Shown: positions 15,890 through 45,973 of the stretch, one piece after another
How positions within the stretch are numbered: position 1 is the stretch's first letter
Layout: each line of letters begins with the position of its first letter
Assembly (NCBI RefSeq): GCF_030813915.1
Contig: NZ_JAUSUJ010000013.1
Location: forward strand, 124,001 to 188,000
Length of the DNA stretch: 64,000 bases
Source: Rhodoplanes tepidamans
GTDB taxonomy: Bacteria > Pseudomonadota > Alphaproteobacteria > Rhizobiales > Xanthobacteraceae
Direction of reading: 5' to 3'
Made by a program: the position numbers and the translations under genes
The notes under the pieces: generated by a model
What the model saw: only the letters and a program-made list of their open reading frames with translations
What the model was told of the DNA's origin: nothing
Databases searched by the model: none

Positions 15890-16972
15890 ATGACGGTCGC
15901 GCTGGTAACGGGCTCGGGCGGCTTGGTCGGCAGCGAATCGGTCCTCCACTTCGGCGGCGTCTTCGACCGGGTGATCGGCATCGACAACGACATGCGCGCG
16001 CGCCTGTTCGGCGCCGAGGCGTCGACCCGCTGGCTCTCCGCCCGGCTCACCGAGCGGCTGCCCAACTACCGGCACCACGACGTCGACATCCGCGACGAGG
16101 CCGCGGTCGGCCGCATCGTCGCGGCCTACGGGCGCGACCTGAAGCTGATCGTCCACACCGCCGCCCAGCCCTCGCACGACTGGGCCGCGCGCGACCCGCG
16201 GGCCGACTTCACCATCAACGCCAACGGCACGCTGGTGCTGCTCGAGGCGATGCGCCGGCACGCGCCGGACGCCGTGTTCGTCTTCACCTCGACCAACAAG
16301 GTCTACGGCGACACGCCCAACCGGCTGCCGCTGGTCGAGCGCGAGACCCGCTTCGAGATCGACCCGACGCACCGCTACGCGGCGCACGGCATCGACGAGA
16401 CCATGACGCTCGACCAGTCGACCCACAGCCTGTTCGGCGTCTCCAAGGTGGCGGCCGACGTGCTCGTGCAGGAGTACGGCCGCTATTTCGGCCTCAGGAC
16501 CGCGGTGTTCCGCGGCGGCTGCCTGACCGGGCCGAACCATTCCGGCACCCAGCTGCACGGCTTTCTCGCCTACCTGATGAAATGCACCATGGCGGGCCGC
16601 CCCTACACGGTGTTCGGCCACAAGGCCAAGCAGGTGCGCGACAACATCCACTCGGCCGACCTGATCGCCGCGTTCGACGCGGTGTGGCGCGACCCGCCCT
16701 GCGGCGAGGTGTTCAACATCGGCGGCGGCCGGGCCGCCAACTGCTCGATGCTGGAGGCGATCGCGCTGTGCGAGGAGATCGCCGGCCGCCGCCTCGCCTG
16801 GCGCTACGAGGACGAGCCCCGCCTCGGCGACCACGTCTGGTACGTCAGCGACCTGCGCCGCTTCCAGGCCCGCTACCCGCACTGGCGCATCACCCGCGAC
16901 ATCCGCCGCACCCTGCAGGACATCCACGACGGCCTGCTGGCCCGCGAGGCGCCGCTCGGCCTGACGGCGTGA
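15890..16972 (+). CDS. NAD-dependent sugar epimerase, CDP-paratose 2-epimerase-like
   Basis: A 360-residue extended short-chain dehydrogenase acting on a nucleotide sugar. The N-terminal '[16 protein letters not shown]' is the NAD-binding TGxxGxxG motif, '[10 protein letters not shown]' holds the catalytic Ser/Thr and '[20 protein letters not shown]' the YxxxK-equivalent region. '[20 protein letters not shown]' and '[11 protein letters not shown]' are typical of CDP-tyvelose/paratose 2-epimerases. It opens the glycan region and lies 101 nt before the HAD-UbiA gene. The exact sugar is not certain from sequence alone. GGGAG lies about 10 nt before the chosen start. Confidence 0.8.
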
Positions 16973-17073
16973 CGCCCGTCTCCCCACCGCGGCGCCCGGG
17001 CTGCGCGTCCGGCGACGCCCTGCTATAAGTCCGCCGAGCCGGGCGAGGCCCGGGCGCGTTCGACGGACCCGTC

Positions 17074-18534
17074 ATGCTGGAGCCCAAGCCCGAAGACCGC
17101 CGCGGCCTCGACGCCGACGTCGCGATCCCGCTGGTCGTCGATCTCGACGGCACGCTGCTGCTCGGCGACTCGCTGGTGGAGAGCTTCAGCGTCGTGCTGT
17201 TCCGCAAGCCGGTCGCCGCCGTCGCTGCGCTGCTGGCGATCCGCGACCGCGCCGCCTTCAAGCGGCGGCTCGCCGGCCACGCCCTGCTCGAGCTCGCCGA
17301 CATGCCGTGGCGCGAGGACCTCGTCGCGCTGCTGCGCACCGAGCGGGCGCGCGGGCGGCCCGTGCATCTCGTCACGGCGGCCGACCAGGCGGTCGCCGAC
17401 GGCGTCGCCGAGGCGCTCGGCCTGTTCGACAGCGCCACCGGCAGCGACGGCGTCCGCAACCTCAAGGGCACGGCCAAGCTCGCCCATCTGCGCGAGCGCT
17501 TCCCCGACGGCTTCCTCTATGCCGGCGACAGCCCGGCCGACCTGCCCCTGTTCGCCGCCGCCAGGGGCGCGGTGCTGTGCGACGTGGCGAAGCGCGTCGC
17601 CGGCGCGGTCGCCCGCTGCGGCACGCCGGTGCTCGGCGTCCTGTCGCGGCCGCGGCCGGGCGCCCGGGTGTGGCTGCGGGCGCTGCGCGTCCACCAGTGG
17701 TCCAAGAACGTGTTGCTGTTCGTGCCGCTGTTCGTCGGCCACGTGTTCACCGATCCGGCCAAGGTCGCGGCCGCGGTCGCCGGCTTCCTGGTGCTCTCGC
17801 TGATGGTGTCGGGCACCTATCTGCTCAACGACATCGCCGACCTCGGCGCCGACCGCAAGCATCCGACCAAGCGGCGCCGCCCGTTCGCCAGCGGCGCCCT
17901 GCCGCTGTCGCTCGGCCTCGTGGCGGCGCCCGTGATGATCGTCTGCGCGATCGCCGCCGGCGCCCTGCTGTCGCCGGACTTCGCCCTGATGCTGCTGATC
18001 TACCTGGCGCTGACCACGGCCTACTCGCTCGCCCTGAAGCGCGAGGCGCTCACCGACGTGTTCGTCATCGGCTGCCTGTTCACGCTGCGGGTCGCCATGG
18101 GCGCGGCGGTGATCGGCCTCGGCCAGTCGCCCTGGCTCCTCTCCTTCGCGCTCGCCTTCTTCCTGTCGCTGGCGCTCGCCAAGCGCCACGCCGAGGTGAT
18201 CCGGGCCGCCCGCAGCGACGCCCGCGAGATCGCCGGCCGCGGCTACACGGGCGACGACTGGCCGCTGACCCTGGTGTTCGGGGTCGGCGCCGGGCTGTTC
18301 TCGCTGGTCATCATGCTGCTCTATCTCACCAACGACGCCTCGCCCTCGGGCTTCTACCGGCACGCCGCCTGGCTCTACGCCGTCCCGGTGCTGATGGCGC
18401 TGTGGCTGCAGCGCATCTGGCTCCTGGCGCAGCGCGCCGAGCTGAACGACGACCCGGTCGTCTTCGCCCTCGCCGACCCCCGCAGCCTCCTCCTCGGCGC
18501 CGCCGTCGGCGCGGCGTTCTTCGTGGCGATCTGA
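17074..18534 (+). CDS. HAD-UbiA fusion, polyprenyl-phosphate phosphoribosyltransferase-like
   Basis: A 486-residue two-domain protein. Residues about 15-195 are a HAD phosphatase: D23-L-D25-G-T nucleophile motif, 'TAADQAVADGVAE', and the acidic 'GDSPADLPLF' motif. Residues about 200-486 are a UbiA-type membrane prenyltransferase with about eight helices, the Mg-PPi motif 'NDIADLGADRKHPTKRRRP', and a second motif near 'YSLALKREALTDVFVI'. This resembles mycobacterial decaprenyl-phosphate phosphoribosyltransferase (Rv3806c) and Azorhizobium NoeC. It would transfer 5-phosphoribose from PRPP to a polyprenyl phosphate; the HAD half may remove the 5-phosphate. GtrA, DprE1- and DprE2-like genes nearby support this pathway. 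Confidence 0.85.
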   Translation: MLEPKPEDRRGLDADVAIPLVVDLDGTLLLGDSLVESFSVVLFRKPVAAVAALLAIRDRAAFKRRLAGHALLELADMPWREDLVALLRTERARGRPVHLVTAADQAVADGVAEALGLFDSATGSDGVRNLKGTAKLAHLRERFPDGFLYAGDSPADLPLFAAARGAVLCDVAKRVAGAVARCGTPVLGVLSRPRPGARVWLRALRVHQWSKNVLLFVPLFVGHVFTDPAKVAAAVAGFLVLSLMVSGTYLLNDIADLGADRKHPTKRRRPFASGALPLSLGLVAAPVMIVCAIAAGALLSPDFALMLLIYLALTTAYSLALKREALTDVFVIGCLFTLRVAMGAAVIGLGQSPWLLSFALAFFLSLALAKRHAEVIRAARSDAREIAGRGYTGDDWPLTLVFGVGAGLFSLVIMLLYLTNDASPSGFYRHAAWLYAVPVLMALWLQRIWLLAQRAELNDDPVVFALADPRSLLLGAAVGAAFFVAI

Positions 18535-18544
18535 GACTCTCTCC

Positions 18545-18648
18545 GTCATCCTGAGGTGCTCGCGCAGCGAGCCTCGAAGGATGAACGGCCCCGGAGTCAC
18601 GGGCCGTCGCCCTTCGAGGCCCGGCTCTGCCGGGCACCTCAGGGTGAC
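18545..18648. repeat. dispersed palindromic element, GTCATCCTGAGGTGC type
   Basis: The ends GTCATCCTGAGGTGC and GCACCTCAGGGTGAC are near-perfect inverted repeats around a palindromic interior. It fills the gap between the convergent HAD-UbiA and gtrA genes. Elements with this end are widespread in Bradyrhizobium-like genomes. It could act as a bidirectional transcription end. Confidence 0.6.
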
Positions 18649-18672
18649 GGGACAAAGCCTGTTCGGAGCCCT

Positions 18673-19122
18673 TCACCCCCGCGCCGCGAACGAGAAATGC
18701 TTGTGGCCGAGATAGCTGGTCACGGTCGGCACGGCGACGCCGACGACGTGCGCCACGGTCTCGGCGTGCCAGGCGAAGCCGATCGCCGGAAACACGGCGC
18801 GGGCGAGACCGACGCTGACGATCCACACCTGCACGATCGCCGCCGCATTGACGATGGCGAAGCGGACATACTCCTGGTGGGCGGCGCGGCCCGACGGCGC
18901 GAACACGAAGGCGCGGTTGAGGACGAAGGCCACGGTCATGCCGCACAGATAGGCGACCGCGACGGCGGCCTCGTAGGACATCGCGAGGCTCAGCGCCATC
19001 CGCGACAGCACGTTGACCAGCGCCGCGGTGCCGCCGGCGGCCAGGAACAGCACGAAGCGCCAGCGGGCGCGCGGATCGGAGGCGGCGGTCCCGCCCGTGT
19101 CCGGCGGCTCCGGCACCGTCAC
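18673..19122 (-). CDS. GtrA-family membrane protein
   Basis: A 149-residue protein with four transmembrane helices in the GtrA pattern ('FVLFLAAGGTAALVNVLSRM', 'AAVAVAYLCGMTVAFVLNRAFVF', then two more). GtrA proteins are thought to help lipid-linked sugars cross the inner membrane; mycobacterial Rv3789, beside dprE1/dprE2, is a GtrA protein tied to decaprenyl-phosphoarabinose. The GTG at 19122 overlaps the upstream stop in a GTGA junction, which fixes the start and shows translational coupling with the flavoprotein gene. It is the last gene of its operon. Confidence 0.85.
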   Translation of the reverse strand: MTVPEPPDTGGTAASDPRARWRFVLFLAAGGTAALVNVLSRMALSLAMSYEAAVAVAYLCGMTVAFVLNRAFVFAPSGRAAHQEYVRFAIVNAAAIVQVWIVSVGLARAVFPAIGFAWHAETVAHVVGVAVPTVTSYLGHKHFSFAARG

Positions 19123-20399
19123 GGCACGCGCTCCGCCATCTCCCGGCCGAGCCGGACGCTCTCGGCGATGCCGCGGTCCTCCGGATAGTAGAACGCCGTG
19201 TCGGCGATCTGCAGCCCGCGCACCGACGTCTCGACCGGCGGCAGCATGGTCGAGAACCCCGGCGGACACACCGGCTGGGCGTGGCGCAGCCGGCCGATCT
19301 TCACCGCGACCACGTCCTCGTCCCGCAGCGCCGGCTGCAGCATCTTCAGACAGCCCAGCGCCTCGGCCCGGAACGTCGCGTCGTCGCGCGAGAACTCCGG
19401 CCGGTCCGGCGGCATGTAGTACGGCACGTAGACGACCGTGTCGCCGGTCGGCCGCAGGTTGGAGAACTCGACGATGCCGGGAATGGCGAAGCGCGGGTCC
19501 GCGATGTTGACCCAGAAATGCGGCGTGATCGACCGCTTCAGCCGGACCAGCACGCAGACGACGCCGATGTTCTCGATCGCGTCGTAGCGGGCCCGCTCGG
19601 CGGCCGGCATGGCCGGCACCAGGGCGCTCACATGAGGCGTCGGCACCGTGCAGATGACGGCATCGGCCGGAAAGACCTCGCCGCCGGCCGTGACGCCCGC
19701 CACGGCGCCCTCGGCGATGTCGATGCGCTCGACCGGAACCCCGCAGCGCACCGTTCCGCCCTGCCGTTCGACCGCGGCGACCAGCGCATCGACCAGCGTC
19801 TGCGAGCCGCCCTCGATGTAGCCGAGCTCCTCCTGGAACAGCGAGCGCCGCGACGTGCCGAGCCGCCTGATGCGGGTCCAGATCCAGGCCGCCGAGACGG
19901 TGTCGGCGTGCTGGAAGAACTTCAGCCGGAACAACGGCGCCCACATCCGCTCGTAGACGCGCGCGCCGCACCAGCGCGTGATCCAGTCGCGCGCCGAGAC
20001 GGTGTCGAGCGCCCGCCAGTCGCGGCGCTTCGTCTCGATGGCCATCATGGCGCCGTAGCGCAGCTTCTCGACGAACGACAGGCCGGGGAAGCGCAGCAGC
20101 GACACCGGGTCGCCCCAGGGATGCAGCGAGCCGTCGACGTAGTAGCCCATGCTGGTCGGCACCCAGCGCATGCGGTCGCCGAGGCCGAGCTCGCTCATCA
20201 GGTCGAAGGTCGGCCGGTCGGCGCGGCAGACGAAGTGATAGAAGCGCTCGATCGACAGCCCGGCGAGATCGAGATGTGCCGCCATGCCGCCCGGCTCGGG
20301 GGCGGCCTCGAGCACCGTCACGGCGTGGCCGCGCCGGCCCGCATGGTAGGCGGCCGCGAGCCCCATGGCGCCGGCTCCGACCACGACGACGCGCGCCAT
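19119..20399 (-). CDS. FAD-dependent amine-oxidase-like oxidoreductase in glycan cluster
   Basis: A 426-residue protoporphyrinogen-oxidase/UDP-galactopyranose-mutase-like flavoprotein. The FAD motif is 'VVVVGAGAMGLAAAYHAGRR', followed by 'VLEAAPEPGGMAAHLDLAG' and the 'GGSQTLVDALVAAVERQGG' block. The C-terminal 'GLQIADTAFYYPEDRG' closes the FAD site. No membrane anchor is visible. Such proteins sit in many polysaccharide clusters beside GtrA genes without a proved reaction. It lies between the SDR gene (2-nt gap) and gtrA (4-nt overlap). Its ending 'REMAERVP' fixes the overlap. Confidence 0.8.
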   Translation of the reverse strand: MARVVVVGAGAMGLAAAYHAGRRGHAVTVLEAAPEPGGMAAHLDLAGLSIERFYHFVCRADRPTFDLMSELGLGDRMRWVPTSMGYYVDGSLHPWGDPVSLLRFPGLSFVEKLRYGAMMAIETKRRDWRALDTVSARDWITRWCGARVYERMWAPLFRLKFFQHADTVSAAWIWTRIRRLGTSRRSLFQEELGYIEGGSQTLVDALVAAVERQGGTVRCGVPVERIDIAEGAVAGVTAGGEVFPADAVICTVPTPHVSALVPAMPAAERARYDAIENIGVVCVLVRLKRSITPHFWVNIADPRFAIPGIVEFSNLRPTGDTVVYVPYYMPPDRPEFSRDDATFRAEALGCLKMLQPALRDEDVVAVKIGRLRHAQPVCPPGFSTMLPPVETSVRGLQIADTAFYYPEDRGIAESVRLGREMAERVP

Positions 20400-20401
20400 G
20401 C

Positions 20402-21349
20402 TCAGAACTCCAGCACGACGTCGGAATAGACCGGATGCCGGAACGTCTCCTCCAGCGCCGCCTGCAGCGGCGTCGCGCGGACGCCGAACAGGCCCGGCCA
20501 GTCGATCACCTCGAACACGTCGGGTGTCACCAGCGCCTCGAGCTGGCGCGTGGTGAACGGCGGATCGCCGTCGAAGCGCGCATAGAGCCAGAGCAGCGCC
20601 CAGAACGCCGCATACGGGATGCGCACGATCGCGGCCTTCGCGCCGCTCGCCTGCTTCACGGCGCGCATCAGGTCGATGTAGTCGATGCGCTCCAGCCCCG
20701 AGATGTTGAACGTGCCGGACGGCCGCCGCGCGATGCACGCCGTCACGATGTCCGCGAAGTCTCCGGCATAGAGCGGCTGGCGCAGATAGCGGCCGTCGCC
20801 GGGGATCGGGAACACCGGCACCTTGCGCATGAAGCGGGCGAGCCAGCCCAGATGCTTGCGGTCGAACCAGCCGAACATCAGGGTCGGGCGCAGCACCACG
20901 CAGTCGAGCCCGGAGGCCAGCACCAGCGTCTCCTGCCCCGCCTTGGTTTCGACGTACCAGTCCTCGGCGGCCGAGGTCACCACCGACGAGCTGACATGGA
21001 CGACATAGGGCCTGCGCGCCGCCACCGCCGCGAGCAGGCGCTCGGTCGCCGTGACGTTGTTCGCCACGAAGACATCGCGGTCGAGGCTGCCGATCTGGGC
21101 GTGCAGCACGACGAGCACGTCGGCGGTGGCGACCGCCTCCTGCCAGCCGTCGTCGCGGGCGAGGTCGGCCTCGATCACCGTGACGTCGGGGTGCAGCCGG
21201 CGCAGCGTCGCCGTGTTGGCCGGGTGCTTGTCGATGGCGACGATGTCGCGGACGCCGCGCGCCTTCAGCCGCGGCATCAGGTTCTGCCCCACCAGCCCGG
21301 CGGCTCCCGTGACGGCCACGCGCAGCGCGGATGGGGTTTCGTCGGCCAT
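20402..21349 (-). CDS. NAD-dependent epimerase/dehydratase family protein
   Basis: A 315-residue extended SDR. The N-terminal 'VAVTGAAGLVGQNLMPRL' is the NAD(P) motif, 'VVHVSSSVVTSAAEDWYVET' carries Ser and a Tyr-x3-Lys-like 'YVETK', and 'TFNISGLERIDYIDLMRAV' is the usual C-terminal substrate region. It probably modifies a nucleotide or lipid-linked sugar. It is the first gene of a three-gene unit with the flavoprotein and gtrA, separated from dprE2 by a terminator. The exact substrate cannot be read. Confidence 0.82.
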   Translation of the reverse strand: MADETPSALRVAVTGAAGLVGQNLMPRLKARGVRDIVAIDKHPANTATLRRLHPDVTVIEADLARDDGWQEAVATADVLVVLHAQIGSLDRDVFVANNVTATERLLAAVAARRPYVVHVSSSVVTSAAEDWYVETKAGQETLVLASGLDCVVLRPTLMFGWFDRKHLGWLARFMRKVPVFPIPGDGRYLRQPLYAGDFADIVTACIARRPSGTFNISGLERIDYIDLMRAVKQASGAKAAIVRIPYAAFWALLWLYARFDGDPPFTTRQLEALVTPDVFEVIDWPGLFGVRATPLQAALEETFRHPVYSDVVLEF

Positions 21350-21460
21350 CGGAATCCCGGAAGCTGGTCGGTCGACTCACGCCGCATCCGGAGGGCGACG
21401 CGCGCCTCCCGGTCGGGCACCGGCAGGCTCGCTTAACGCAGTCGGACGGCGCTGGCCATT

Positions 21461-21484
21461 GAAAAAGCCGGCCGGACGCCGGTC
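21461..21484 (-). terminator. Rho-independent terminator after dprE2-like gene
   Basis: On the minus strand a CCGGC/GCCGG stem with a 5-nt loop is followed by CTTTTT. It lies 12-35 nt past the dprE2-like stop, so the dprE1-dprE2 unit ends here and the SDR-flavoprotein-gtrA unit needs its own promoter in the next 110 nt. Confidence 0.6.
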
Positions 21485-21495
21485 CTGCACCGCGG

Positions 21496-22242
21496 TCAGA
21501 TGCGCAGGCGCCTGAACACGAACCACGGCAGGTTGCGGATGATCGCCATGATCACCCACCAGAACCACGGCGCATAGACGACCCGCCGGCCCTTCTCGAC
21601 CGCCCGGACGATGTCGGCGCCGACCGCGTCGGGGCTGGCGAACAGCGCCCCCTTGGCGATCGCGTCGGTCATCGGCGAATCGACGAAGCCGGGCTTCACC
21701 GTGACGATCCGCACCGGCGTGCCGGCATGCTTCTGCGCCAGCCCTTCGAGGAAGCGGTCGAGCCCGCCCTTGGCGGCGCCGTAGACGAAGTTCGAGGCAC
21801 GGCCGCGGTCGCCGGCGACCGAGCCGATGGTGATCAGGGCCAGCGGCGCCTGCGGCGGACGATCCTTCAGGAGCGCCAGGATCCACAGCGCCACGCTGAC
21901 GAAGTTCACCTCGAAGGCGTGCCGCGCGGCGTCGAGATCGCGTTCGCTCTCGGCCTGGTCGGGAAGCTCGCCATAGGCGATCAGCACCTCGTCGGGCTCG
22001 CCGAAGCGCCCGCGCAGGTCCGCCGCCCGCGTCTCGATTCCGGCGAGGTCGGCGAGGTCCATGGTGGCGATCTCGGCCGCCGGCGCGCCGGAGGCGCGCA
22101 GGTCGTCGGCCACGGCGGCGAGCCGCGTGGCGTTGAGGCCGACCAGCAGGAACGAGGCGCCGGTGGCGGCGCGGCGGCGGGCATAGGCCTGCGCCATCGC
22201 CGAGCTCGCGCCGAGCACCAGGATGCGGCAGGGCGCGCTCAT
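21496..22242 (-). CDS. SDR oxidoreductase, DprE2-like
   Basis: A 248-residue classical SDR. The cofactor motif is 'LVLGASSAMAQAYARRRA'. The active site is 'TIGSVAGDRGRASNFVYGAAK', in which Ser, Tyr and Lys form the YxxxK triad. The C-terminus 'WFWWVIMAIIRNLPWFVFRR' is hydrophobic and basic, so the protein may sit on the membrane. Size, this tail and coupling to dprE1 match DprE2 (Rv3791), which reduces the keto intermediate of decaprenyl-phosphoribose epimerisation to the arabinose form. Its ATG overlaps the dprE1 stop (ATGA). Confidence 0.85.
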   Translation of the reverse strand: MSAPCRILVLGASSAMAQAYARRRAATGASFLLVGLNATRLAAVADDLRASGAPAAEIATMDLADLAGIETRAADLRGRFGEPDEVLIAYGELPDQAESERDLDAARHAFEVNFVSVALWILALLKDRPPQAPLALITIGSVAGDRGRASNFVYGAAKGGLDRFLEGLAQKHAGTPVRIVTVKPGFVDSPMTDAIAKGALFASPDAVGADIVRAVEKGRRVVYAPWFWWVIMAIIRNLPWFVFRRLRI

Positions 22243-23570
22243 GCGGCGTCTCCGGTCACGCGTCGCCAGAAGTCCGAGCCGAAGGCGGGGTCCCGCCACG
22301 CCTCGACGCTGCGCCATTCGGGATAGCCGGCCCGGAACATGTCGGGCGTCATCACGGAGTCCTTGGCGGGATAGAGGCGGCCGCCGGCCGCCGTCGCGAT
22401 CTCGGCGAGCGTCAGGAGCAGGCGGCGGGTCCGCTCGCCCTTGTTGGGGAAGTCGAGCGCCAGCGTCGCGCCCGGCATCGGGAAGGACAGCACGCCGCCG
22501 GAGCGCGATTCGCCGAGCAGCTTGAGCACGGCCAGGAACGAGCCCTGCCCCTGCGCCGCGGTGGTCTCCAGCAGCCGCACGACGGTGTCGCGCGCCGCCG
22601 GGAACGGGATCACCGACTGGTGCTGGTAGAAGCCGCGCTTGCCGTAGAGGCGGTTCCAGGCCGCCAGCGTGTCGAGCGGATAGAAGAACGGGTCGTAGTG
22701 CTGGGTACCGGCGCCGAGCGCATAGGGGCGCTTGCGGTAGAGGGCGTTGAAGGCCCGCATGGTCAGGCTGTTGAGCAGCAGTCCCGGCGGCTCCGGCGCG
22801 AAGCCGAGCCGCGGCGGCCTGTGGATGTCGAGGCCGCCCGTCTCGGCCCAGCGGCCACGCATGAACAGGCCGCGGCCGAGCTCGCGCCCCTTGGCGAGGC
22901 AGTCGACCCAGGCGACCGTGAAGGGCCAGTCGCGGCTCGCCTCGGCGATGCGGAAGAAGTCGTCGACGTCGGCGATCGCCAGCGTCTCGATGGCGAGCCG
23001 GGCCGCGCGGATCGGCACCAGCGTCATCTCCACCCACGCGATGAAGCCGGTCATGCCGAGGCCGCCGATCGTGGCGGCGAACAGCTCGGCGTTCGCGTCG
23101 CGCGACAGGGTCAGGGTCTCGCCGGTCGAGCGCCGCAGTCCGAGCCGCTCGACATGGGCCCCGAAGCTGCCGGCGGTCTCGTGATTCTTGCCGTGCACGT
23201 CGTTGGCGACGGCCCCGCCCAGCGTCACGAACTTGGTGCCGGGCGTCACCGGCACGAACCAGCCGCGCGGCACGATCACCCGCAGCAGCCGGTCGATCGA
23301 GAGGCCCGCCTCGGCCCGCACCCGGCCGGCCTGCAGGTCGATCCACTGCAGGCGGTCGAGCCGGTCGGTGACCATCAGGCGGCCGCCGGCATTGAGGCAG
23401 ACGTCGCCGTAGGAGCGGCCGAGCCCGCGGACGAGCAGCGGGCTCCCGGGAGCCCCGACGATCGCCGCGGCGTCGTCCAGGAAGGGCGGCCGCGAGACCG
23501 CGTGCGGCAGCCGGCTCAGCCGGCCCCAGGCGGAGACGTCGGACATCGCGGCGGTCGGCGTCGTGCTCAT
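22239..23570 (-). CDS. FAD-binding oxidoreductase, DprE1-like
   Basis: A 443-residue vanillyl-alcohol-oxidase-fold flavoprotein. Motifs shared with mycobacterial DprE1 are 'RGLGRSYGDVCLN' (48-60), 'NDVHGKNHETAGSFGAHV' (123-140) and 'GRLYPAKDS' with Lys403 matching catalytic Lys418. It would oxidise the 2-hydroxyl of polyprenyl-phosphoribose. The residue equivalent to DprE1 Cys387 is Ala371 ('ATLALDFPNKG'). Start 23570 is preferred; 23546 is possible. It is translationally coupled to dprE2 and 63 nt from the flippase-like gene upstream. Confidence 0.88.
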   Translation of the reverse strand: MSTTPTAAMSDVSAWGRLSRLPHAVSRPPFLDDAAAIVGAPGSPLLVRGLGRSYGDVCLNAGGRLMVTDRLDRLQWIDLQAGRVRAEAGLSIDRLLRVIVPRGWFVPVTPGTKFVTLGGAVANDVHGKNHETAGSFGAHVERLGLRRSTGETLTLSRDANAELFAATIGGLGMTGFIAWVEMTLVPIRAARLAIETLAIADVDDFFRIAEASRDWPFTVAWVDCLAKGRELGRGLFMRGRWAETGGLDIHRPPRLGFAPEPPGLLLNSLTMRAFNALYRKRPYALGAGTQHYDPFFYPLDTLAAWNRLYGKRGFYQHQSVIPFPAARDTVVRLLETTAAQGQGSFLAVLKLLGESRSGGVLSFPMPGATLALDFPNKGERTRRLLLTLAEIATAAGGRLYPAKDSVMTPDMFRAGYPEWRSVEAWRDPAFGSDFWRRVTGDAA

Positions 23571-23633
23571 GCGGACGGTGTATCCTCGCGAAGCGGCGGC
23601 GGGCAAGCCAGGGGACGTGTCGGGGGCGGTCCC

Positions 23634-24698
23634 TCAGGCGGCGGAGCGGGGCGTGGACAGGCGCAGCGCCGCCGGCACGGCCAGGAAGCCCGCCGCGGTC
23701 GCGTACCAGACGGTGCCGAGGCGCAGGATGGCGGTCGCCACCAGGGCGACCTCGGTCGGCACGCCCTGAAGGCCGAGCAGCATCACCATGACGATCTCGA
23801 AGCCGCCGACGCCGCCCGGCAGCATGGTGAGGCCGCCGACCACGCCGGCGAAGGCGAACACGAAGGTGGCGGCGAGGAGGTCGACCGGAGCGCCGAGCAG
23901 GTGGAGGACGATCCACAGCGACACCGCCTCGGCGAACCAGGAGGCGATGCCGAGGGTGAGAGCCACCACGAAGGCCCGGCCCTGCATCACCAGGGCGGTG
24001 TTGCGGACCATGTGGCGGAGATGGACGAACAGCCGCGGCTTGATGCGGACCACCGCATAGGCGGTGTTCAGACAGGCGATCAGCAGGCGAGGCCGGGCGA
24101 GCAGCAGCGTGCCGGCCGCCGCGACGGTCAGCACGGCCAGCACCGAGCCGCGATACTGCTCGAAGCCCGTCAGGCCGGCCAGGCACAGGAGCAGCATGGC
24201 GTAGACGTCGCTGATCCGGTCGCCGAGCTGGAGCGCGATGCCGCGCCGGTACGTGAAGGCGTATTTACGCTTCATGAACCACAGCCGCACCATCTCGCCG
24301 ATCTTGCCGGGCGACATGGTGAGCGCGAAGCCGGCGACGTAATAGACCGACATCTCGCCGAACGGCACCGAGAGGCCGAGCAGCCGCGCCAGATAGACGA
24401 AGCGCCAGGTGCGGATCGCGTAGTTGAGGGTGGCGAAGGCGACCACCACGAGGACCAGCCAGACCGGCGCGTCGGCCAGCACCCGGACCGCCTTGTCGAG
24501 GTCGTTGCGGGCGGCCAGCACCACGATGGCGGCGAGCAGCGACAGGCCGGCGAGCGTCGCGGCGACCACGGCGGCGCGACGCAGCGCCGGGCGCAGCACC
24601 ATGGCGCTCTCGGGCGCGGCCGCGGCCACGGATTCGGACAGCGCCGTCGTCGCCGGCATGATCGCCCCCTGCCCTCCTGGTCGGCCCGTGTCTGACAT
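23634..24698 (-). CDS. LPG synthase TM-domain (UPF0104) flippase-like membrane protein
   Basis: A 354-residue integral membrane protein of the lysylphosphatidylglycerol-synthase transmembrane type without the soluble synthase domain. It has about eight helices and the family blocks 'NYAIRTWRFVYLARLLG', 'AGFALTMSPGKIGEMVRLWF' and 'LTMLPGGVGGFEIVMVML'. Such proteins are often found with lipid-linked sugar genes and are proposed to move lipids or polyprenyl sugars. AGGTGAGG about 7 nt before ATG 24698 supports the start; an internal ATG at 24659 also has a purine-rich site. It probably heads the dprE1-dprE2 transcript. Confidence 0.82.
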   Translation of the reverse strand: MSDTGRPGGQGAIMPATTALSESVAAAAPESAMVLRPALRRAAVVAATLAGLSLLAAIVVLAARNDLDKAVRVLADAPVWLVLVVVAFATLNYAIRTWRFVYLARLLGLSVPFGEMSVYYVAGFALTMSPGKIGEMVRLWFMKRKYAFTYRRGIALQLGDRISDVYAMLLLCLAGLTGFEQYRGSVLAVLTVAAAGTLLLARPRLLIACLNTAYAVVRIKPRLFVHLRHMVRNTALVMQGRAFVVALTLGIASWFAEAVSLWIVLHLLGAPVDLLAATFVFAFAGVVGGLTMLPGGVGGFEIVMVMLLGLQGVPTEVALVATAILRLGTVWYATAAGFLAVPAALRLSTPRSAA

Positions 24699-24914
24699 CC
24701 ACCCTCACCTTACCAGCGCTACGTAAATGAATTGCGCCCGGAATTGGGGCGCCGCAGAGGCCTCGGGCGCCTGCCCGGCGGGTTGCGGCCCGGCCGGGCC
24801 TCCCGCTCCCGGCGGCGACGCCTTGACGTTCCGGCGGGAGCCCGCTTTATCGCCGCGTCCGGCCTTGCGACCGCCGTGCCACGGCGGCTGCCCCGGACCC
24901 CGGGGAGACCGACC

Positions 24915-25508
24915 ATGCCGGCAGCCGACAGCATCGCGGCGCATTTCGAGAGGTCGCGCGAGGCCATGGAGCGCGCCGCGACCGACGCGGCGCTGCTCGA
25001 CGCCATCGCCGAGATCGCCGCGGCGATCACCCGATCGTTCCGCTCCGGCGGCAAGCTCCTGATCGCCGGCAACGGCGGCAGCGCCGCCGACGCGCAGCAC
25101 ATCGCGGCCGAGTTCCTGTCGCGGATGAACTACGACCGCGACCCGCTGCCGGCGATCGCGCTCACCACCGACACCTCGGTGCTCACCGCGGTCGGCAACG
25201 ACTACGGCTTCGATCTGGCCTTCGAGAGGCAGGTGCGCGGCCTCGCCCGCGCCGGCGACGTGCTGATCGCGATCTCGACCTCGGGCCGCTCGCCCAACGT
25301 GCTTGCGGCCCTGAAGGCGGCGAAGAAGCAGGGGGTCGTGACGGTCGGCTTCACCGGCGAGGGGCCGCGCGACATGGCGGCACTGTGCGACCACGTGCTC
25401 GCCGCGCCGTCGTCGTCGACCCCGCTGATCCAGCAGATCCACATCGTCGCCGCGCATGCGATCTGCACCGTCGTCGAGGACGCGCTGTTCGGCGGACCCC
25501 ACGGCTGA
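24915..25508 (+). CDS. gmhA: D-sedoheptulose 7-phosphate isomerase
   Basis: First enzyme of ADP-heptose synthesis, converting sedoheptulose 7-phosphate to glycero-manno-heptose 7-phosphate in the cytoplasm. The 197-residue protein has the SIS-fold signature 'IAGNGGSAADAQHIAAEFL' with active-site Ser, His and Glu, and 'ISTSGRSPNVLAALKAAKKQ', the phosphate-binding loop. Late motif 'LIQQIHIVAAHAIC' supplies the second metal/active-site His. The start follows GGGGAGACC. hldE, hldD, a gmhB-like gene and waaF are within 10 kb, so the heptose pathway is local but not one operon. Confidence 0.96.
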   Translation: MPAADSIAAHFERSREAMERAATDAALLDAIAEIAAAITRSFRSGGKLLIAGNGGSAADAQHIAAEFLSRMNYDRDPLPAIALTTDTSVLTAVGNDYGFDLAFERQVRGLARAGDVLIAISTSGRSPNVLAALKAAKKQGVVTVGFTGEGPRDMAALCDHVLAAPSSSTPLIQQIHIVAAHAICTVVEDALFGGPHG

Positions 25509-25544
25509 CCGGCGTCGAGCCAAACACGGTTGATCAGGTTCGCC

Positions 25545-25646
25545 GTCATTCCGGGGCGCACCGAAGGTGCGAGCCCGGACTCCAGCGGCAGGCTCCGAAT
25601 TCTCGGCCGGAGTCCGGGTTCGCGGCTCCGCGCGCCCCGGAATGAC
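25545..25646. repeat. dispersed palindromic element, GTCATTCCGGGGCGC family (copy 1)
   Basis: About 102 bp with outer arms GTCATTCCGGGGCGC and GCGCCCCGGAATGAC and a nested inner inverted repeat (CCCGGACTCC with GGAGTCCGGG). It lies between the convergent gmhA and GT-C-like genes. Copies 2-5 are at 30885, 32536, 42177 and 50675. Confidence 0.8.
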
Positions 25647-25672
25647 CACCGCAGCGATCAGCGGCCCCCGTA

Positions 25673-27232
25673 TCACCCCGGCGCGCCGTCCGCCTCGCGG
25701 CCGCGCAGGCGCGCCGTCGCGGCGGCGAGCAGCAAAGCGAGGCCGAGCCCGGCGATCAGCGGGCCGCGCTTGAGCAGGCTCTCCTTCTGGCGCGCCACGA
25801 AGCCGGCGAGGCCGCCGCGGCGCCGCTCCTCCGAGTCGTCCTGCCCGAGCAGCACCGGCGGCAGCCGCTCGCGGATGCCGGGCTGGGCGAGCGCGAAGGC
25901 GAGCCGCTCCGCGGTCGGATAGGGAATGTGCAGGGGCGGCCGGTCCTGCAGCTCGCGGATGTCGCCGGAGGCCAGATAGGCCTTCACCCGCTCGGTCTGA
26001 ATGACCGCCATGTCGCGACGGTAGCCGATCTCGAACAGGGTGCTGCCGTTGAACCAGCGCCCCGCCCCGGCCGCGACGACCAGCACCCAGACGCTGGCGG
26101 CCGCGGCGAGCCGCCGCCCCCCCGCGCCGGCGCGGGACAGCGTCCACAGCAGGATGGCGAAGTTCAGCACCAGGCCGACCGCGAAGATGTCGAGATAGCG
26201 CGGCGCCGGGAAGGCGGCGCCGCGCCCGTAGACGATCGCCAGGGCCTGCAGGGCGACCCAGACCCACAGGCCGAGCAGCAGCCAGCCGTGGTGGCGCAGG
26301 CCGGGCCGCTCGCGCCACAGCGCCGCGGCGACCAGGGCCACGGGCGCCTGCACGAACAGCGCCACGGCCGCCAGCAGGCCGAGAGCGACGTGCGGCGCGA
26401 CGACCGGCCAGGCCCCCGCCGAGAGCAGGCTGCGGACGAAGGCCAGCACGGTCGCCGGACGCAGATGGTCGTTGCCGGGCAGCACCGGCAGCAGCAGCCA
26501 GGAGCCGACGAACAGCGCGGCATAGACCGGCAGCGCCGCCCATTCGCGGCCGCCGCGCCGCTGCCCGGCGGCGATCTGCAGCACCGCGACCGTCAGCACC
26601 GCGAGCAGCGCGACGCCGCCCGAGGCCATGCCGAGATAGGCCGCGCAGGCGACCGCGAGGCCGGCCCACCAGCGCGGCCCGAAGGCCGGCGCCGGCACCA
26701 GCAGCACGAGGCCGGCGACGCTGAACAGCAGCAGGAAATAGAACTGCGACTGGAAGCCCCACAGGGTGTTGTCGGAGCCGAACGGCAGCCCGAACACCAG
26801 CGCCGCGAAGCCGCACAGCGCCAGCCGCTCGCCCGCCCCGAGGCCGCGGAGCAGGACCGCCAGCACCAGGGCGAGCGTGCCGACATGCAGGACCGCGCCG
26901 GCCACCATCTGCAGGATGGGGTCCCAGCGGTCCTGCAGCGCGAGCAGGCCGATGGCGAGCAGGCGGGTGAACAGGATGCGGTGATCGACATGCGGGGCGA
27001 GCAGCTCGGCGAGGCCGAGCCGGCCCTGGAGCCAGGCCGGGTAGATCAGCACCGCCTCGGCGTCCCACTGGTCCCAGAACGGGGTCGGGCTGCCGTGGCT
27101 GGCGATCAGCCACAGCTTGGCGCCGAGCACGACCAGCAGACAGCCGGCCGGCGGCGCCAGCCGCAGCGCGGTCGCGCCGGCCTGCGCGAGGCGCCGGCGC
27201 GTCTCGGGCGGAAGCCGGAGGCTCGCATGCAT
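25673..27232 (-). CDS. polytopic membrane protein, GT-C glycosyltransferase-like
   Basis: A 519-residue protein with roughly ten hydrophobic helices. The first periplasmic loop after helix 1 holds an acidic motif, 'FWDQWDAEA' (D54, D57, E59), followed by 'HVDHRI' (81-86). This is the arrangement of GT-C enzymes, which use acidic residues in the first outer loop with polyprenyl-phosphate sugars as donors. The C-terminal part is periplasmic-like and then ends with one helix and a basic tail. No family name is certain. Its closeness to the DprE1/DprE2/UbiA genes makes it a candidate arabinofuranosyltransferase. It is followed by manC upstream in the same strand (33-nt gap). Confidence 0.7.
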   Translation of the reverse strand: MHASLRLPPETRRRLAQAGATALRLAPPAGCLLVVLGAKLWLIASHGSPTPFWDQWDAEAVLIYPAWLQGRLGLAELLAPHVDHRILFTRLLAIGLLALQDRWDPILQMVAGAVLHVGTLALVLAVLLRGLGAGERLALCGFAALVFGLPFGSDNTLWGFQSQFYFLLLFSVAGLVLLVPAPAFGPRWWAGLAVACAAYLGMASGGVALLAVLTVAVLQIAAGQRRGGREWAALPVYAALFVGSWLLLPVLPGNDHLRPATVLAFVRSLLSAGAWPVVAPHVALGLLAAVALFVQAPVALVAAALWRERPGLRHHGWLLLGLWVWVALQALAIVYGRGAAFPAPRYLDIFAVGLVLNFAILLWTLSRAGAGGRRLAAAASVWVLVVAAGAGRWFNGSTLFEIGYRRDMAVIQTERVKAYLASGDIRELQDRPPLHIPYPTAERLAFALAQPGIRERLPPVLLGQDDSEERRRGGLAGFVARQKESLLKRGPLIAGLGLALLLAAATARLRGREADGAPG

Positions 27233-27265: not shown

Positions 27266-28684
27266 TCAGTCGCGCCGGTAGTCGTCCTCGAGCCGGACGA
27301 TGTCGTCCTCGCCCAGATAGCTGCCGGTCTGCACCTCGATCAGCTCGAGCGGAATCTTGCCCGGGTTGGCGAGGCGGTGGACCGTGCCGATCGGGATGAA
27401 GATCGACTCGTTCTCGTGCACGATCGAGCGCCGGTCGCCGGTCGTCACCTCGGCGGTGCCGCGCACCACCACCCAGTGCTCGGCCCGGTGATAGTGGCGC
27501 TGCAGCGACAGCTGGGCGCCGGGCGACACGACGATGCGCTTCACCTGGTAGCGCTCGCCGCGGTCGAGCGAATCGTAATGGCCCCACGGGCGATGGCACA
27601 GCCGGTGGGCGGTCGCCTCGGCACGGCCCTGCTTCTTGAGCATCGCCACCGCCCCCTTGACGTCCTCGGCGCGCGAGCGCGGCAGCACGAGGACGGCGTC
27701 GGGCGTCGTCACGATGACGAGGTCCTTGACGCCGAGCGCGACGGTGAGCCGGTCCTCGGCGTGGACGATGCAGTCCTGCGCCTCGAGGGTCGCGACCGGG
27801 CCCGACACCACGTTGCCGGCCTCGTCGCGCGGCGCGATGTCGAACACGGCGTCCCACGAGCCGATGTCGGACCAACGGAACCGGCCCTCGATCACGGCGG
27901 TGCGGTCGGTGCGCTCCATGACGGCGTAGTCGATCGACTTCTGCGGCGCCGCCCCGAAGGCGTCGGCGTCGAGCCGCACGAAGCCGAGATCGAGCGACGC
28001 CTTGTCGACCGCGGCGACGACGGCCCGCTCCATCTCGGGCTCGAAGCGGGCGAGCTCGGCGAGCAGCGTCTCGGCGCCGAACAGGAAGTTGCCCGAGTTC
28101 CACAGATAGCCGTCGGTGACGTAGCGGGCCGCGGTCGCGGCGTCCGGCTTCTCGACGAAGGCGTCGACCCGGGCGACCCCGTCGATGCCGAGCGTCTCGC
28201 CCCTGCGGATGTAGCCGTAGCTCGTCTTCGGCGCGCTCGGCAGGATGCCGAAGGTGACGATGCGGCCCGCCTCGGCGGCCGCGAGGCCGGCCGCGCAGGT
28301 CGCCTCGAACACGTCCTGGTCGAGGATGACGTGGTCGGCGGCGATCGCCAGCACCACGGCGTCGGGGTCACGCTTGCGGGCGAGCGCCGCGCCGGCCGCG
28401 ATGGCCGGGCCCGAATCGCGCCGCATCGGCTCCAGCACGACGGTCGCGTCGATGCCGAGCTCCTCGGCCTGGGCCTTGGCGAAGAAGCGGAAGTCGTTCG
28501 CCGTCATGACGATCGGCGGACCGAACAGCTCCGGCGAGGCGACCCGCGCCAGCGCCTGCTGGTAGGTCGAGCGGTCGCCGACCAGCGGCAGGAACTGCTT
28601 CGGCATGGCGTCGCGCGACACCGGCCACAGGCGGGTGCCGGAACCGCCGGCGAGCAGGAGGGGGATGATCTTCGGTCGAGCCAT
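27266..28684 (-). CDS. manC: mannose-1-phosphate guanylyltransferase/mannose-6-phosphate isomerase
   Basis: Bifunctional 472-residue enzyme making GDP-mannose from mannose 1-phosphate. The N-terminal nucleotidyltransferase has 'LLLAGGSGTRLWPVSRDAMP' with the pyrophosphorylase GxGTRLWP motif, and 'FVEKPDAATAARYV'. The C-terminal cupin isomerase has 'QLSLQRHYHRAEHWVVVRG' with its metal-binding His residues. Length fits the AlgA/ManC (CpsB) class. GDP-mannose would feed capsule or O-antigen sugars. It sits between the GT-C-like gene and the divergent gmhB-like fusion. Confidence 0.95.
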   Translation of the reverse strand: MARPKIIPLLLAGGSGTRLWPVSRDAMPKQFLPLVGDRSTYQQALARVASPELFGPPIVMTANDFRFFAKAQAEELGIDATVVLEPMRRDSGPAIAAGAALARKRDPDAVVLAIAADHVILDQDVFEATCAAGLAAAEAGRIVTFGILPSAPKTSYGYIRRGETLGIDGVARVDAFVEKPDAATAARYVTDGYLWNSGNFLFGAETLLAELARFEPEMERAVVAAVDKASLDLGFVRLDADAFGAAPQKSIDYAVMERTDRTAVIEGRFRWSDIGSWDAVFDIAPRDEAGNVVSGPVATLEAQDCIVHAEDRLTVALGVKDLVIVTTPDAVLVLPRSRAEDVKGAVAMLKKQGRAEATAHRLCHRPWGHYDSLDRGERYQVKRIVVSPGAQLSLQRHYHRAEHWVVVRGTAEVTTGDRRSIVHENESIFIPIGTVHRLANPGKIPLELIEVQTGSYLGEDDIVRLEDDYRRD

Positions 28685-30996: not shown

Positions 30997-32511
30997 CTAC
31001 CGCGGCATCGCGTCGGGCACGGCGGGGCCGCCGGCCCGCTCGGGCGCCTGCCCGGACTTCTTGAGGATGCCGGTGGTCGAGTGGCCCGGCACGATGTCGA
31101 CCAGCACCACCTCGCCGCCGTCCGCCTCGACGATCTCGTGGCCGACCACCTGGTCGACCCGGTAGTCGGAGCCCTTCACCAGCACGGCGGGGCGCAGCCG
31201 GCGGATCAGCTCGATCGGCGTGTCCTCCTCGAACACGGCGACGAGGTCGACCGCCTCCAGCGCGGCCAGCACGTCGGCGCGCGCCGCCACGTCCTGGATC
31301 GGCCGCCCCTCGCCCTTGAGGCGCTTCACCGAGGCGTCGCTGTTGAGCCCGACCACCAGCCGGTCGCAGGCGGCACGCGCCCGGCTCAGCACCCGCACGT
31401 GGCCCGGGTGGAGAATGTCGAAGCAGCCGTTGGTGAAGCCGATGCGCAGCCCCTGCGCCCGCCACGCCGCGACCCGCTCGGCCAGCACCGCGTCGTCGAA
31501 GACGATCTTCTCCTCCGAGGCGAGCGCCGCGGCGGGCAGCAGCTGCGAGCGCAGCTCGAGCGCCGAGACCGTCGCGGTGCCGCGCTTGCCGACCACCACG
31601 GCGGCGGCCGCGTTGGCCATCCGCATCGCCGCCTCGAAGCCCGACTCGGCGGCCAGCATCAGGGCCAGCACGGCGACCACGGTGTCGCCGGCGCCCGACA
31701 CGTCGCGCACCCGCACCGGGTTCGCCGGCACGTGCACGGGCGGACGGAGCGCCTGCTTCAGCAGCATGCCCTCCTCGCTCAGCGTGACGAGCAGCGCGTC
31801 GCTCTCGGCGGCACGGCGCAGCTCCTCGGCCGCCTCGGCGACGTCCTCGAGCCCGCCGAGCGGCCGCCGCGACGCCTCGCCGAGCTCCTTGCGGTTCGGC
31901 GTGATCAGGGTGGCGCCGCGATAGACCGAGAAGTCGCGCCCCTTGGGGTCGACCACCACGGGCTTGCCCAGCGCCCTCGCCCGCTCGATCACGCCGCGCA
32001 CGACGCGCGGGGTGAGCACGCCCTTGGCGTAGTCGGACAGCACCACGGCGCCGGCGGCCGGCAGCGCCGCCTCGACCTCCGCCAGGATCGCGTCCTCGAT
32101 GGCGACCGGCACCGGCGAGACGCGCTCCCAGTCGGCGCGCAGCAGGTGGCTCGAATAGTGCTCGGAGACGAAGCGCAGCTTTCTGATCGTCGGCCGCAGC
32201 GGGTCGACGACGAGCCGCGCGTCGACCCGGCCGTCGCGGCGGGCGAAGGCGGCGCGCAGCGTCTGCCCGGCCTCGTCGTCGCCCACCACGCCGACGAACA
32301 CGCAGGCGGCGCCCAGCGTCGCGATGTTGCAGGCGACGTTGCCGGCGCCGCCGATGATCGTCTCCTCGCGCTTGACCGCGATCACCGGCACGGGCGCCTC
32401 GGGCGACACCCGCGACACCTCGCCGTAGACGAACTGGTCGAGCATCAGGTCGCCGACGCAGATCACGGTCTGCGAGGGGATGCGCGAGAGGAAGACTTCG
32501 AAGTCGAGCAT
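30997..32511 (-). CDS. hldE: bifunctional heptose-7-phosphate kinase/heptose-1-phosphate adenylyltransferase
   Basis: A 504-residue cytoplasmic enzyme carrying out two steps of ADP-heptose synthesis. The N-terminal ribokinase-like domain (1-330) has '[15 protein letters not shown]' and '[19 protein letters not shown]', with the catalytic Asp of the GAGD motif. The C-terminal cytidylyltransferase-like domain has '[18 protein letters not shown]', the HxGH motif, and the KISKS-like end 'HSTTGILKK'. A Pro/Ala-rich tail of about 20 residues follows. Between it and hldD lies a palindromic element, so they may be separate transcripts. Confidence 0.97.
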
Positions 32512-32655: not shown

Positions 32656-33636
32656 TCACCTGTACCGGTCCGCCCGGTCGAGGAAGCCGGTCACGTAGCG
32701 GCCGACGGCGTCCTCCAGCCGGGTGAAGCCGCCGTTGTACCCGGCACGCCGCAGCTTCTCGACCGAGCTCCGGGTGAAGTACTGGTACTGGTCGCGGATG
32801 GACAGGGGCATGTCCACGTATTCGATGTTGGCCGGCCTGCCGAGCGCCGCGAAGGCGGCCGTGATCAGCTCGCGGAAGCTCCGCGCCTCGCCGGTGCCGA
32901 CGTTGAAGATCCCCGACACGGTCGGCGTGTCGAGGAACCAGCGCAGCACCGCCACGGCGTCGTCGACGCAGATGAAGTCGCGCCGCTGGTCGCCGTCGGC
33001 GATGCCGTCGCGATGCGACTTGAACAGCGTGACGGTGCGATCGGCCTTCACGTCGTCGAAGCGCTTGGCGACCAGGCTCGCCATCTCGCCCTTGTGGTAC
33101 TCGTTGGGGCCGAACACGTTGAAGAACTTCAGCCCGACCCATTGCGGCGGCAGCGCCTCGCCGCGCGCCTGCCGGTTCTTCAGGGCGAGGTCGAACAGGT
33201 GCTTGCTCCAGCCGTAGAGATTGAGCGGCCGCAGCCGGCGCAGCGCCTCCAGGCTCTCGTCGTCGACGAAGCCGCCGTCGCCGTTGCCGTAGGTCGCGGC
33301 CGACGAGGCGTAGACGAACGGCGTGCGGTTCGCCGTGCACCAGTCGAGCAGGCGCAGCGACAGGCGGAAGTTCGACTCCATCACCTCGTCGCCGTCGCGG
33401 GCCGTGGTGTCGGAGTTGGCGCCCATGTGGATGACCGCGTCGAGCCGGCGGCCGTCCAGCCAGCGCGCCAGATCCTCGGGCGGCACGAAGTCGGCGATCT
33501 CGCGCTTCGCCAGGTTCTTCCACTTGGCGTCGCAGCCGAGCCGGTCGTTCACCACCACGTCGGTGCGGCCGGCCTCGTTGAGGCTCGCCACCACGTTGGA
33601 GCCGATGAACCCCGCTCCCCCCGTCACCAGAAACAT
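32656..33636 (-). CDS. hldD: ADP-glyceromanno-heptose 6-epimerase
   Basis: Last step of ADP-L-glycero-D-manno-heptose synthesis. The 326-residue extended SDR has the N-terminal 'MFLVTGGAGFIGSNVVASLN' NADP motif, 'VYASSAATYGNGDGGFVDDE' with the catalytic Ser, 'LYGWSKHLFDLAL' with YxxxK, and 'FNVFGPNEYHKGEMASLVAK', which is specific to HldD. Length and motifs match E. coli RfaD closely. It precedes hldE on the same strand and is divergent from the heptosyltransferase gene. Confidence 0.96.
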   Translation of the reverse strand: MFLVTGGAGFIGSNVVASLNEAGRTDVVVNDRLGCDAKWKNLAKREIADFVPPEDLARWLDGRRLDAVIHMGANSDTTARDGDEVMESNFRLSLRLLDWCTANRTPFVYASSAATYGNGDGGFVDDESLEALRRLRPLNLYGWSKHLFDLALKNRQARGEALPPQWVGLKFFNVFGPNEYHKGEMASLVAKRFDDVKADRTVTLFKSHRDGIADGDQRRDFICVDDAVAVLRWFLDTPTVSGIFNVGTGEARSFRELITAAFAALGRPANIEYVDMPLSIRDQYQYFTRSSVEKLRRAGYNGGFTRLEDAVGRYVTGFLDRADRYR

Positions 33637-33790
33637 CGTTCCGCGTCCCGTCCCGGCTCGGCCCGCGCGGCCGGCCGGGTTCCCTAGCCCTGCCGCACAC
33701 CGTTGTGCAACACGGTATTTTTCGACGGTTCGGCGACCCGCCGGGCCGCCTCTGGACTTCCGGGCCGCGCCGGGCTAGCGCCTCCCACGC

Positions 33791-41102: not shown

Positions 41103-41178
41103 TCCCGTCACGCAATCGCTTGCGTCGCGCGGCCCTTTCGGAGAGGGTCGCGCGTCCTTTTTCAGCAACGGAGCCGAC

Positions 41179-42171: not shown

Positions 42172-42176
42172 CCCTG

Positions 42177-42279
42177 GTCATTCCGGGGCGCCGCGGAGCG
42201 GCGAACCCGGACTCCAGCCACGAGGACGGTGTTCGACGCTGGATTCCGGGTTCGCGCCTGCGGCGCGCCTCGGAATGAC
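42177..42279. repeat. dispersed palindromic element, copy 4
   Basis: Outer arms GTCATTCCGGGGCGC and GCGCGCCTCGGAATGAC with one mismatch and an inner CCCGGACTCCAGC/GCTGGATTCCGGG repeat. It lies between the convergent hpnA and hpnK stops, 5 nt from hpnA and 8 nt from hpnK. Confidence 0.8.
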
Positions 42280-42287
42280 CGGAGCGT

Positions 42288-43139: not shown

Positions 43140-43158
43140 GTTCCGGCGTCTCCTCCGA

Positions 43159-43301: not shown

Positions 43302-43340
43302 CGGTCCGTGCTCGCGGCAGGTCTTTTCAAGACCCTCGGC

Positions 43341-45967: not shown

Positions 45968-45973
45968 GGCGGA

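Follow-up and report, generated by a model that had tools for sequence, protein, structure and literature searches.

Lipid-linked pentofuranoses outside mycobacteria form a young field. One reference point is the mycobacterial decaprenyl-phosphoarabinose pathway (Rv3806c, DprE1, DprE2 and Rv3789), which comprises a UbiA protein, DprE1, DprE2, a small GtrA-type protein and GT-C transferases. In 2024, systems consisting of a HAD-UbiA protein, an epimerase, a flippase and a GT-C enzyme were described (Kelly 2024, PMC11127046). In these three-component systems, represented by Citrobacter youngae O1 and O2, HAD (PRP) and UbiA domains are joined in one protein that makes polyprenyl-phosphate ribofuranose. 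The epimerase is optional, being either the short-chain dehydrogenase/reductase (SDR) ORF13 or, for arabinofuranose, DprE1/DprE2, and export and transfer are assigned to a MATE flippase and a GT-C enzyme. ORF13 of the O2 system, reported with TGxxGxxG and YxxxK motifs, inverts C3 and decides between ribofuranose and xylofuranose, while arabinofuranose glycans accompany DprE1/DprE2 homologues, for which a role in arabinofuranose systems is proposed (PMC11127046). Azorhizobium caulinodans noeC, noeH and noeO, of the noeCHOP genes for Nod-factor arabinosylation, have been linked to a proposed D-arabinose precursor route (PMC2443382), and a polysaccharide of alpha-D-arabinofuranose is known from Devosia (PMC8707391). 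The cassette analysed here lies in a 64,000-nucleotide stretch of the Rhodoplanes tepidamans genome (contig NZ_JAUSUJ010000013.1, positions 124,001 to 188,000; the window) and shares the arabinofuranose core of these systems. It also carries an extended SDR, termed SDRep, and a flavoprotein, termed FADox. As far as our searches reach, this pair, with a GtrA protein and a GT-C family, constitutes an undescribed recurrent extension. The genes of the cassette are as follows (window coordinates).

17074-18534, plus strand: HAD-UbiA fusion, N-terminal phosphoribose phosphatase and C-terminal polyprenyl-phosphate 5-phosphoribosyltransferase (PRK08238)
18673-19122, minus strand: GtrA-family membrane protein, candidate flippase (Pfam PF04138, 58.1 bits)
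19119-20399, minus strand: FADox, PRK07233 flavoprotein of the protoporphyrinogen oxidase (PPOX)/phytoene desaturase (PDS) fold, PF01593 type
20402-21319, minus strand (upstream start at 21349 possible): SDRep, extended SDR, epimerase-like (Pfam Epimerase, 76.2 bits)
21496-22242, minus strand: DprE2-like SDR reductase (best PDB match DprE2, 85 bits)
22239-23570, minus strand: DprE1-like FAD oxidase (236 bits to solved DprE1)
23634-24698, minus strand: LPG-synthase-TM (LPG-TM) membrane protein that may serve the core as a second or alternative flippase (Pfam PF03706, 129.2 bits)
25673-27232, minus strand: GT-C-fold membrane protein, candidate for pentofuranose transfer in the variant with the pair (predicted fold)

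Compared with the Citrobacter youngae systems, the locus has GtrA and LPG-TM proteins instead of a MATE flippase, combines DprE1/DprE2 with the SDRep/FADox pair, which goes without mention in the available text of PMC11127046, and carries a GT-C family that had no match in Pfam or NCBIfam scans. A UbiA protein with a PRP/HAD domain is present and a GT-C counterpart is indicated by predicted fold (weak E-values, an invariant Asp in loop 1), while none of the 10 proteins scanned has a MATE-family match, and the locus encodes GtrA, LPG-TM and the GT-C-fold protein as its membrane proteins. The differences from the mycobacterial pathway are the fusion of a HAD phosphatase to UbiA, the additional SDR/flavoprotein pair and scores under the equivalog cut-offs. 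Azorhizobium noeCHOP lies in a nod operon, unlike the genes described here. FADox shares its fold and FAD-binding site with other PRK07233/PF01593 flavoproteins (relatives of PPOX, PDS and HpnE) but, unlike them, is part of a glycolipid gene cassette.

All genes that the initial annotation had named in this region were recovered as intact open reading frames (open-reading-frame listing and codon-based gene choice). The HAD-UbiA fusion scores 556.8 bits on NCBIfam PRK08238 (cut-off 351), its HAD part matches Pfam at 39.5 bits, and DxDGT and GDSPAD motifs were found in it by eye. Its best PDB match is the mycobacterial decaprenyl-phosphate phosphoribosyltransferase (8j8j, 106 bits), in alignment with which the UbiA part preserves the phosphoribosyl pyrophosphate (PRPP)-binding stretch NDxxDxxxDRxHPTKRxRP. 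The DprE1 and DprE2 genes are coupled by an ATGA overlap, as had been claimed. In PDB alignments, the DprE2-like protein retains Y-x3-K, and the DprE1-like protein retains the AKDS stretch, which we take to be the site of the essential lysine, and, unlike the mycobacterial enzyme, has Ala at the position of DprE1 Cys387. The first non-DprE1 chain among the PDB matches of the latter reaches only 46 bits, against 236 for DprE1. The genome has a single DprE1, with a partial match (29%) at one other place, and the DprE1 of the nearest named relative is that of Rhodoplanes elegans (84%).

Polyprenyl-phosphate ribofuranose synthesis followed by 2-epimerisation to D-arabinofuranose is a type of core that is already known, because of the HAD-UbiA biochemistry of Kelly 2024, the noeC/H/O link and the Devosia polysaccharide. 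Homology, motifs and gene coupling give good reason for confidence that the gene set makes a lipid-linked arabinofuranose donor, as the initial annotation had proposed; the proposal is not new, since PMC11127046 and PMC2443382 precede it. The module had also been called near-complete, which understates it, as candidates for donor synthesis, dephosphorylation (by the HAD domain fused to UbiA), epimerisation, export and transfer are all present. The gene set very probably supplies the cell surface with lipid-bound arabinose or one of its derivatives. A check with hidden Markov models for UbiA-DPPR synthase, DprE1 and DprE2, suggested earlier, gave matches below the NCBIfam equivalog cut-offs for all three core proteins (DprE1 343.7 versus 500 bits, DprE2 143.9 versus 250, and the UbiA part 155 versus 234 on the DPPR-synthase model PRK12324), although these enzymes are nonetheless their nearest solved relatives. 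The low scores would suit a core that makes a lipid-linked pentose other than arabinofuranose, with divergent DprE1/DprE2-like proteins acting at a different position or on a different lipid-linked sugar. This is very improbable: the score of the DprE1-like protein against solved DprE1 exceeds that against any other solved family by 190 bits, UbiA retains its PRPP-binding stretch, and Azorhizobium NoeC/H/O are reported to be similar and are tied to arabinosylation (PMC2443382).

The brief suggestion in the initial annotation that the SDR and flavoprotein between the core genes may alter the sugar further has turned out to concern the more interesting part of the locus. FADox belongs to PRK07233 (527.4 bits, cut-off 252), and its predicted structure (25 sequences; predicted local distance difference test, pLDDT, 92.6) finds PPOX, PDS and monoamine oxidase in Foldseek at template-modelling (TM) scores of about 0.7-0.8, up to 0.82. 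SDRep retains TGxxGxxG and YxxxK by alignment, and both proteins keep their cofactor and catalytic motifs. In a profile search SDRep forms a discrete family, with strong matches of at least 330 bits and the next best at 79 bits; its best solved matches are sugar epimerases, at a weak 64 bits (PDB). FADox was also considered as a ring mutase resembling UDP-galactopyranose mutase, from a loose likeness of C-terminal motifs, a proposal that fold and sequence matches do not support: the mutase is absent from the best 50 of 1,988 Foldseek matches and the best 60 of 111 sequence matches. FADox occurs in none of 32 HAD-UbiA neighbourhoods (DprE1 in 25, absent from 7), where SDRs related to SDRep reach at most 79 bits on its profile. 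No paper on the pair was found in the open-licence literature searched, subscription journals and supplements lying outside the reach of that search.

The association of the pair with the core is strict. Of 80 named DprE1 loci, which are the best-scoring among 587 relatives and therefore biased to close ones, 25 contain both SDRep and FADox, as do 9 of 40 further loci (40 of 57 DprE1 matches; leaving out the own genome, 55 others), and neither protein occurs alone in either set. At strict profile limits, 167 stretches contain SDRep in 45 and FADox in 46, the sole difference being L201, and a looser limit adds L202 and L203 as stretches with FADox but without SDRep; these three had been picked for their remote FADox matches. 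As the locus sets were biased by selection, plasmids were searched with each protein separately. Among 72,556 plasmid records, DprE1 was found in 63, SDRep in 7 and FADox in 8; all seven SDRep records also carry FADox and DprE1, and the eighth FADox record is a 32% match in Embleya. A PRK07233 search of 349 genomes gave 9 matches including the own genome, and six of the other eight contain the full cassette. In the seventh (G512; L194 and L238), SDRep-FADox-GtrA starts one contig and HAD-UbiA-DprE1-DprE2 ends another, while the eighth (L201, 34%) has no other cassette gene. Linkage in DprE1 loci, FADox genomes and plasmid searches rules out the pair as a chance neighbour. The usual order is HAD-UbiA, DprE1, DprE2, SDRep, FADox, GtrA, as in all four annotated pair-bearing plasmid stretches examined; other arrangements occur, the window being one, with HAD-UbiA on the opposite strand.

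The FADox fold bears on a reading in which the pair acts on the polyprenyl carrier, for example by altering its saturation near the phosphate, and not on the sugar. PDS and PPOX have membrane-borne substrates, PRK07233 matches also include two archaea (Haloferax volcanii and Methanosarcina acetivorans), and a remote FADox relative adjoins GtrA (L203). Modification of the carrier is nevertheless improbable, as SDRep is nearest in the PDB to sugar epimerases, if weakly, no partner that would modify the carrier, for instance a kinase, was seen, and the strict tie to DprE1/DprE2 points to the sugar as the target.

Several observations on distribution stand beside these results. The six-gene cassette is found on a conjugative 110-kb plasmid, pDG3-1a of Agrobacterium salinitolerans (L266, L271), accompanied by rhamnose, rhamnan and pseudaminic-acid genes and insertion sequence elements. 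A record titled Streptomyces sp. AcH 505 (L139) contains the cassette, with SDRep and FADox at 54-56% identity, for which transfer or assembly contamination are both possible explanations. Four loci from the same family as the window (L161, L162, L263 and L265) have a different extended SDR near DprE2, which scores 75-79 bits on the SDRep profile. One locus of the same order (L234) has HAD-UbiA (45%) and GtrA, without DprE1 or DprE2 within 20 kb, and is possibly a lipid-linked ribofuranose system. Sinorhizobium meliloti pSymB (L269) carries a lone DprE1-like oxidase beside parE and cytochrome b genes, with no UbiA or DprE2 nearby.

The pair is an add-on to the core. It is not needed for the core, because the core occurs without it in 86 of 121 loci and in near-complete congeners. 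Within the genus, DprE1 is present in five of six genomes (the sixth is 58% complete), whereas SDRep and the GT-C gene are each found in one of six, this genome only. That the congeners lack both goes beyond the initial annotation. HAD-UbiA and DprE2 are separated by 12 bases in L146 and by none in L147; at that position the window has a 3.0-kb SDRep-FADox-GtrA stretch, and in L145 other sequence fills 1.7 kb. The GT-C gene is likewise missing between the GmhA and guanylyltransferase genes in L145 and L146. A quick tree of DprE1 shows at least 18 gains or losses of the pair (122 of 130 rows used; loci shorter than 8 kb that lack the pair were scored as unknown). Foreign composition of the insert was considered and not seen, the G+C content of the triad being 0.704-0.72 against 0.717 for the window. 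Inverted repeats occur at window positions 25545-25646, 18546-18647 and elsewhere. Paired inverted copies of GTCATTCCGGGGCGC account for 10 window matches at no more than one mismatch, where 0.06 are expected, and one such pair sits between the GmhA and GT-C genes. The boundary of the segment missing from congeners, between HAD-UbiA and GtrA, carries an inverted repeat of another sequence, TCATCCTGAGGTGC.

The membrane protein at 25673-27232, earlier described as an orphan of GT-C type, is predicted to have a GT-C fold. Its model (6 sequences; pLDDT 70.5, predicted TM score 0.78) retrieves only GT-C enzymes in Foldseek rows 1-11 (oligosaccharyltransferase complexes, arabinosyltransferase AftA and ALG9), with ArnT at row 16 and AftB at row 18. 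An acidic residue in loop 1 is the usual base of GT-C enzymes, and all 18 relatives examined retain Asp54 and His84 of loop 1, together with Gly205, Arg337 and Arg345. The gene is single-copy in the genome, and the possibility that it is an unrelated orphan is ruled out: five relatives (32-37%) adjoin GtrA, and the family tracks the pair. Among the 121 loci the family occurs in 17, 16 of which have the pair; 19 loci have the pair without it and 85 have neither (Fisher p 1.6e-9, uncorrected and ignoring kinship). The sole GT-C locus without the pair (L076) is a 5.3-kb contig ending just past the GT-C gene. Across 12 independent pairs on the DprE1 tree, the GT-C family changed in the same direction as SDRep/FADox 5.7 times on average and in the opposite direction 0.0 times (median p 0.031, range 0.008-0.125). 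Further multi-membrane families are also split by the pair, in small numbers and with one family mixed.

GtrA accompanies the pair in 33 of 35 pair-bearing loci versus 3 of 86 without it; the own genome has four GtrA matches. LPG-TM stays beside DprE1 in L061, L145 and L146 and occurs in 3 of 35 pair loci versus 22 of 86 others (p 0.047). This is a weak trend only for LPG-TM as an alternative to the pair, and the window carries both GtrA and LPG-TM. The tie to GtrA is also consistent with a plain D-arabinofuranose system, in which SDRep and FADox would leave the sugar unchanged and serve the same product as a redox partner, in a chaperone-like role or in flipping with GtrA. The core alone explains arabinofuranose, arabinofuranose systems with DprE1/DprE2 are already known, and Devosia has such a polysaccharide (PMC8707391). 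We consider this reading unlikely, though worth keeping in view: the pair is dispensable for the core, and the cofactor and catalytic motifs retained in both proteins suggest chemistry.

Modification of the sugar by the pair, as had been suggested in passing, agrees with its linkage to the core, and we give it an even chance, the reaction itself being inferred. In the mechanism proposed, HAD-UbiA would form lipid-linked ribofuranose on polyprenyl phosphate, its HAD domain removing the phosphate, and DprE1 (FAD) would oxidise C2 for reduction by DprE2 (NAD(P)H), yielding polyprenyl-phosphate D-arabinofuranose; both steps are assigned by strong homology to tested enzymes. SDRep and FADox would then further change the lipid-linked arabinofuranose, a step suggested by linkage. 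From fold, family and linkage, GtrA may be the flippase of the product and LPG-TM that of the unmodified sugar lipid, and the GT-C protein may move the sugar onto a periplasmic acceptor, most likely lipopolysaccharide (LPS) or another surface polysaccharide.

Taken as a whole, an extended, cassette-like pentofuranose system within an LPS-heptose cluster, in which the pair alters polyprenyl-phosphate arabinofuranose for a flippase and GT-C enzyme of its own, is somewhat favoured. Beside the low equivalog scores of the core, several points weigh against it. None of the close relatives of either SDRep or FADox has a known reaction. In L201-L203 a FADox homologue (about 31-34% identity) stands without SDRep, and the fold family of FADox is therefore not peculiar to this chemistry. 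The Foldseek matches of the GT-C model are weak (TM 0.3-0.44, no E-value at 0.001 or better), the tree test is marginal and the Fisher test ignores kinship.

More tentatively, and with only a minor share of our confidence, SDRep and FADox may perform a second epimerisation, or a related change, of polyprenyl-phosphate D-arabinofuranose to give a lipid-linked pentofuranose undescribed in bacterial glycans. The simplest candidate would be D-lyxofuranose (the C3 epimer of D-arabinofuranose): according to Kelly 2024 (PMC11127046), a single SDR, ORF13, inverts C3 and no polysaccharide containing lyxofuranose is known. If so, the pair, GtrA and a dedicated GT-C family would form a mobile add-on converting arabinosylation into a new sugar of the cell surface in Alpha-, Beta- and Gammaproteobacteria. 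Should the pair change the sugar in any way, a widespread cassette would make a donor that nobody has sought, and its gene signature would mark strains for analysis. A natural contrast is available in one genus, between relatives that have just the arabinose core and the one genome that has the add-on as well. DprE1 is a tuberculosis drug target, and work on its homologues could be done in harmless bacteria.

The flanks of the cassette, whose LPS-heptose character is a further addition to the initial annotation, contain the following genes.

15890-16972, plus strand: extended SDR adjoining HAD-UbiA (Pfam Epimerase, 106.9 bits, scanned from 15995)
24915-25508, plus strand: GmhA-like phosphoheptose isomerase, context outside the system (best NCBIfam 192 bits, under the cut-off of 276)
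27266-28684, minus strand: mannose-1-phosphate guanylyltransferase/mannose-6-phosphate isomerase, context (TIGR01479, 628.7 bits, over cut-off)
30997-32511: HldE-like gene, assigned by reading
32656-34861: HldD (minus strand) and heptosyltransferase II (plus strand) of the LPS inner core, context (TIGR02197 389.9 and TIGR02195 265 bits, over cut-offs)

The SDR at 15890-16972 has a 90% identical neighbour in one congener (L146), and its role in the system is uncertain. A GmhB-like flanking gene scores under its NCBIfam cut-off. Plasmid-borne cassettes adjoin dTDP-rhamnose/rhamnan and pseudaminic-acid genes, and LPS or another surface polysaccharide is favoured as the acceptor because of the LPS-heptose flanks and these polysaccharide-gene neighbours. 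About 15 kb from the cassette, at window positions 41173-46978, lie the hopanoid head-group genes HpnA, HpnK, HpnJ, HpnI and HpnL, each of which exceeds its NCBIfam cut-off.

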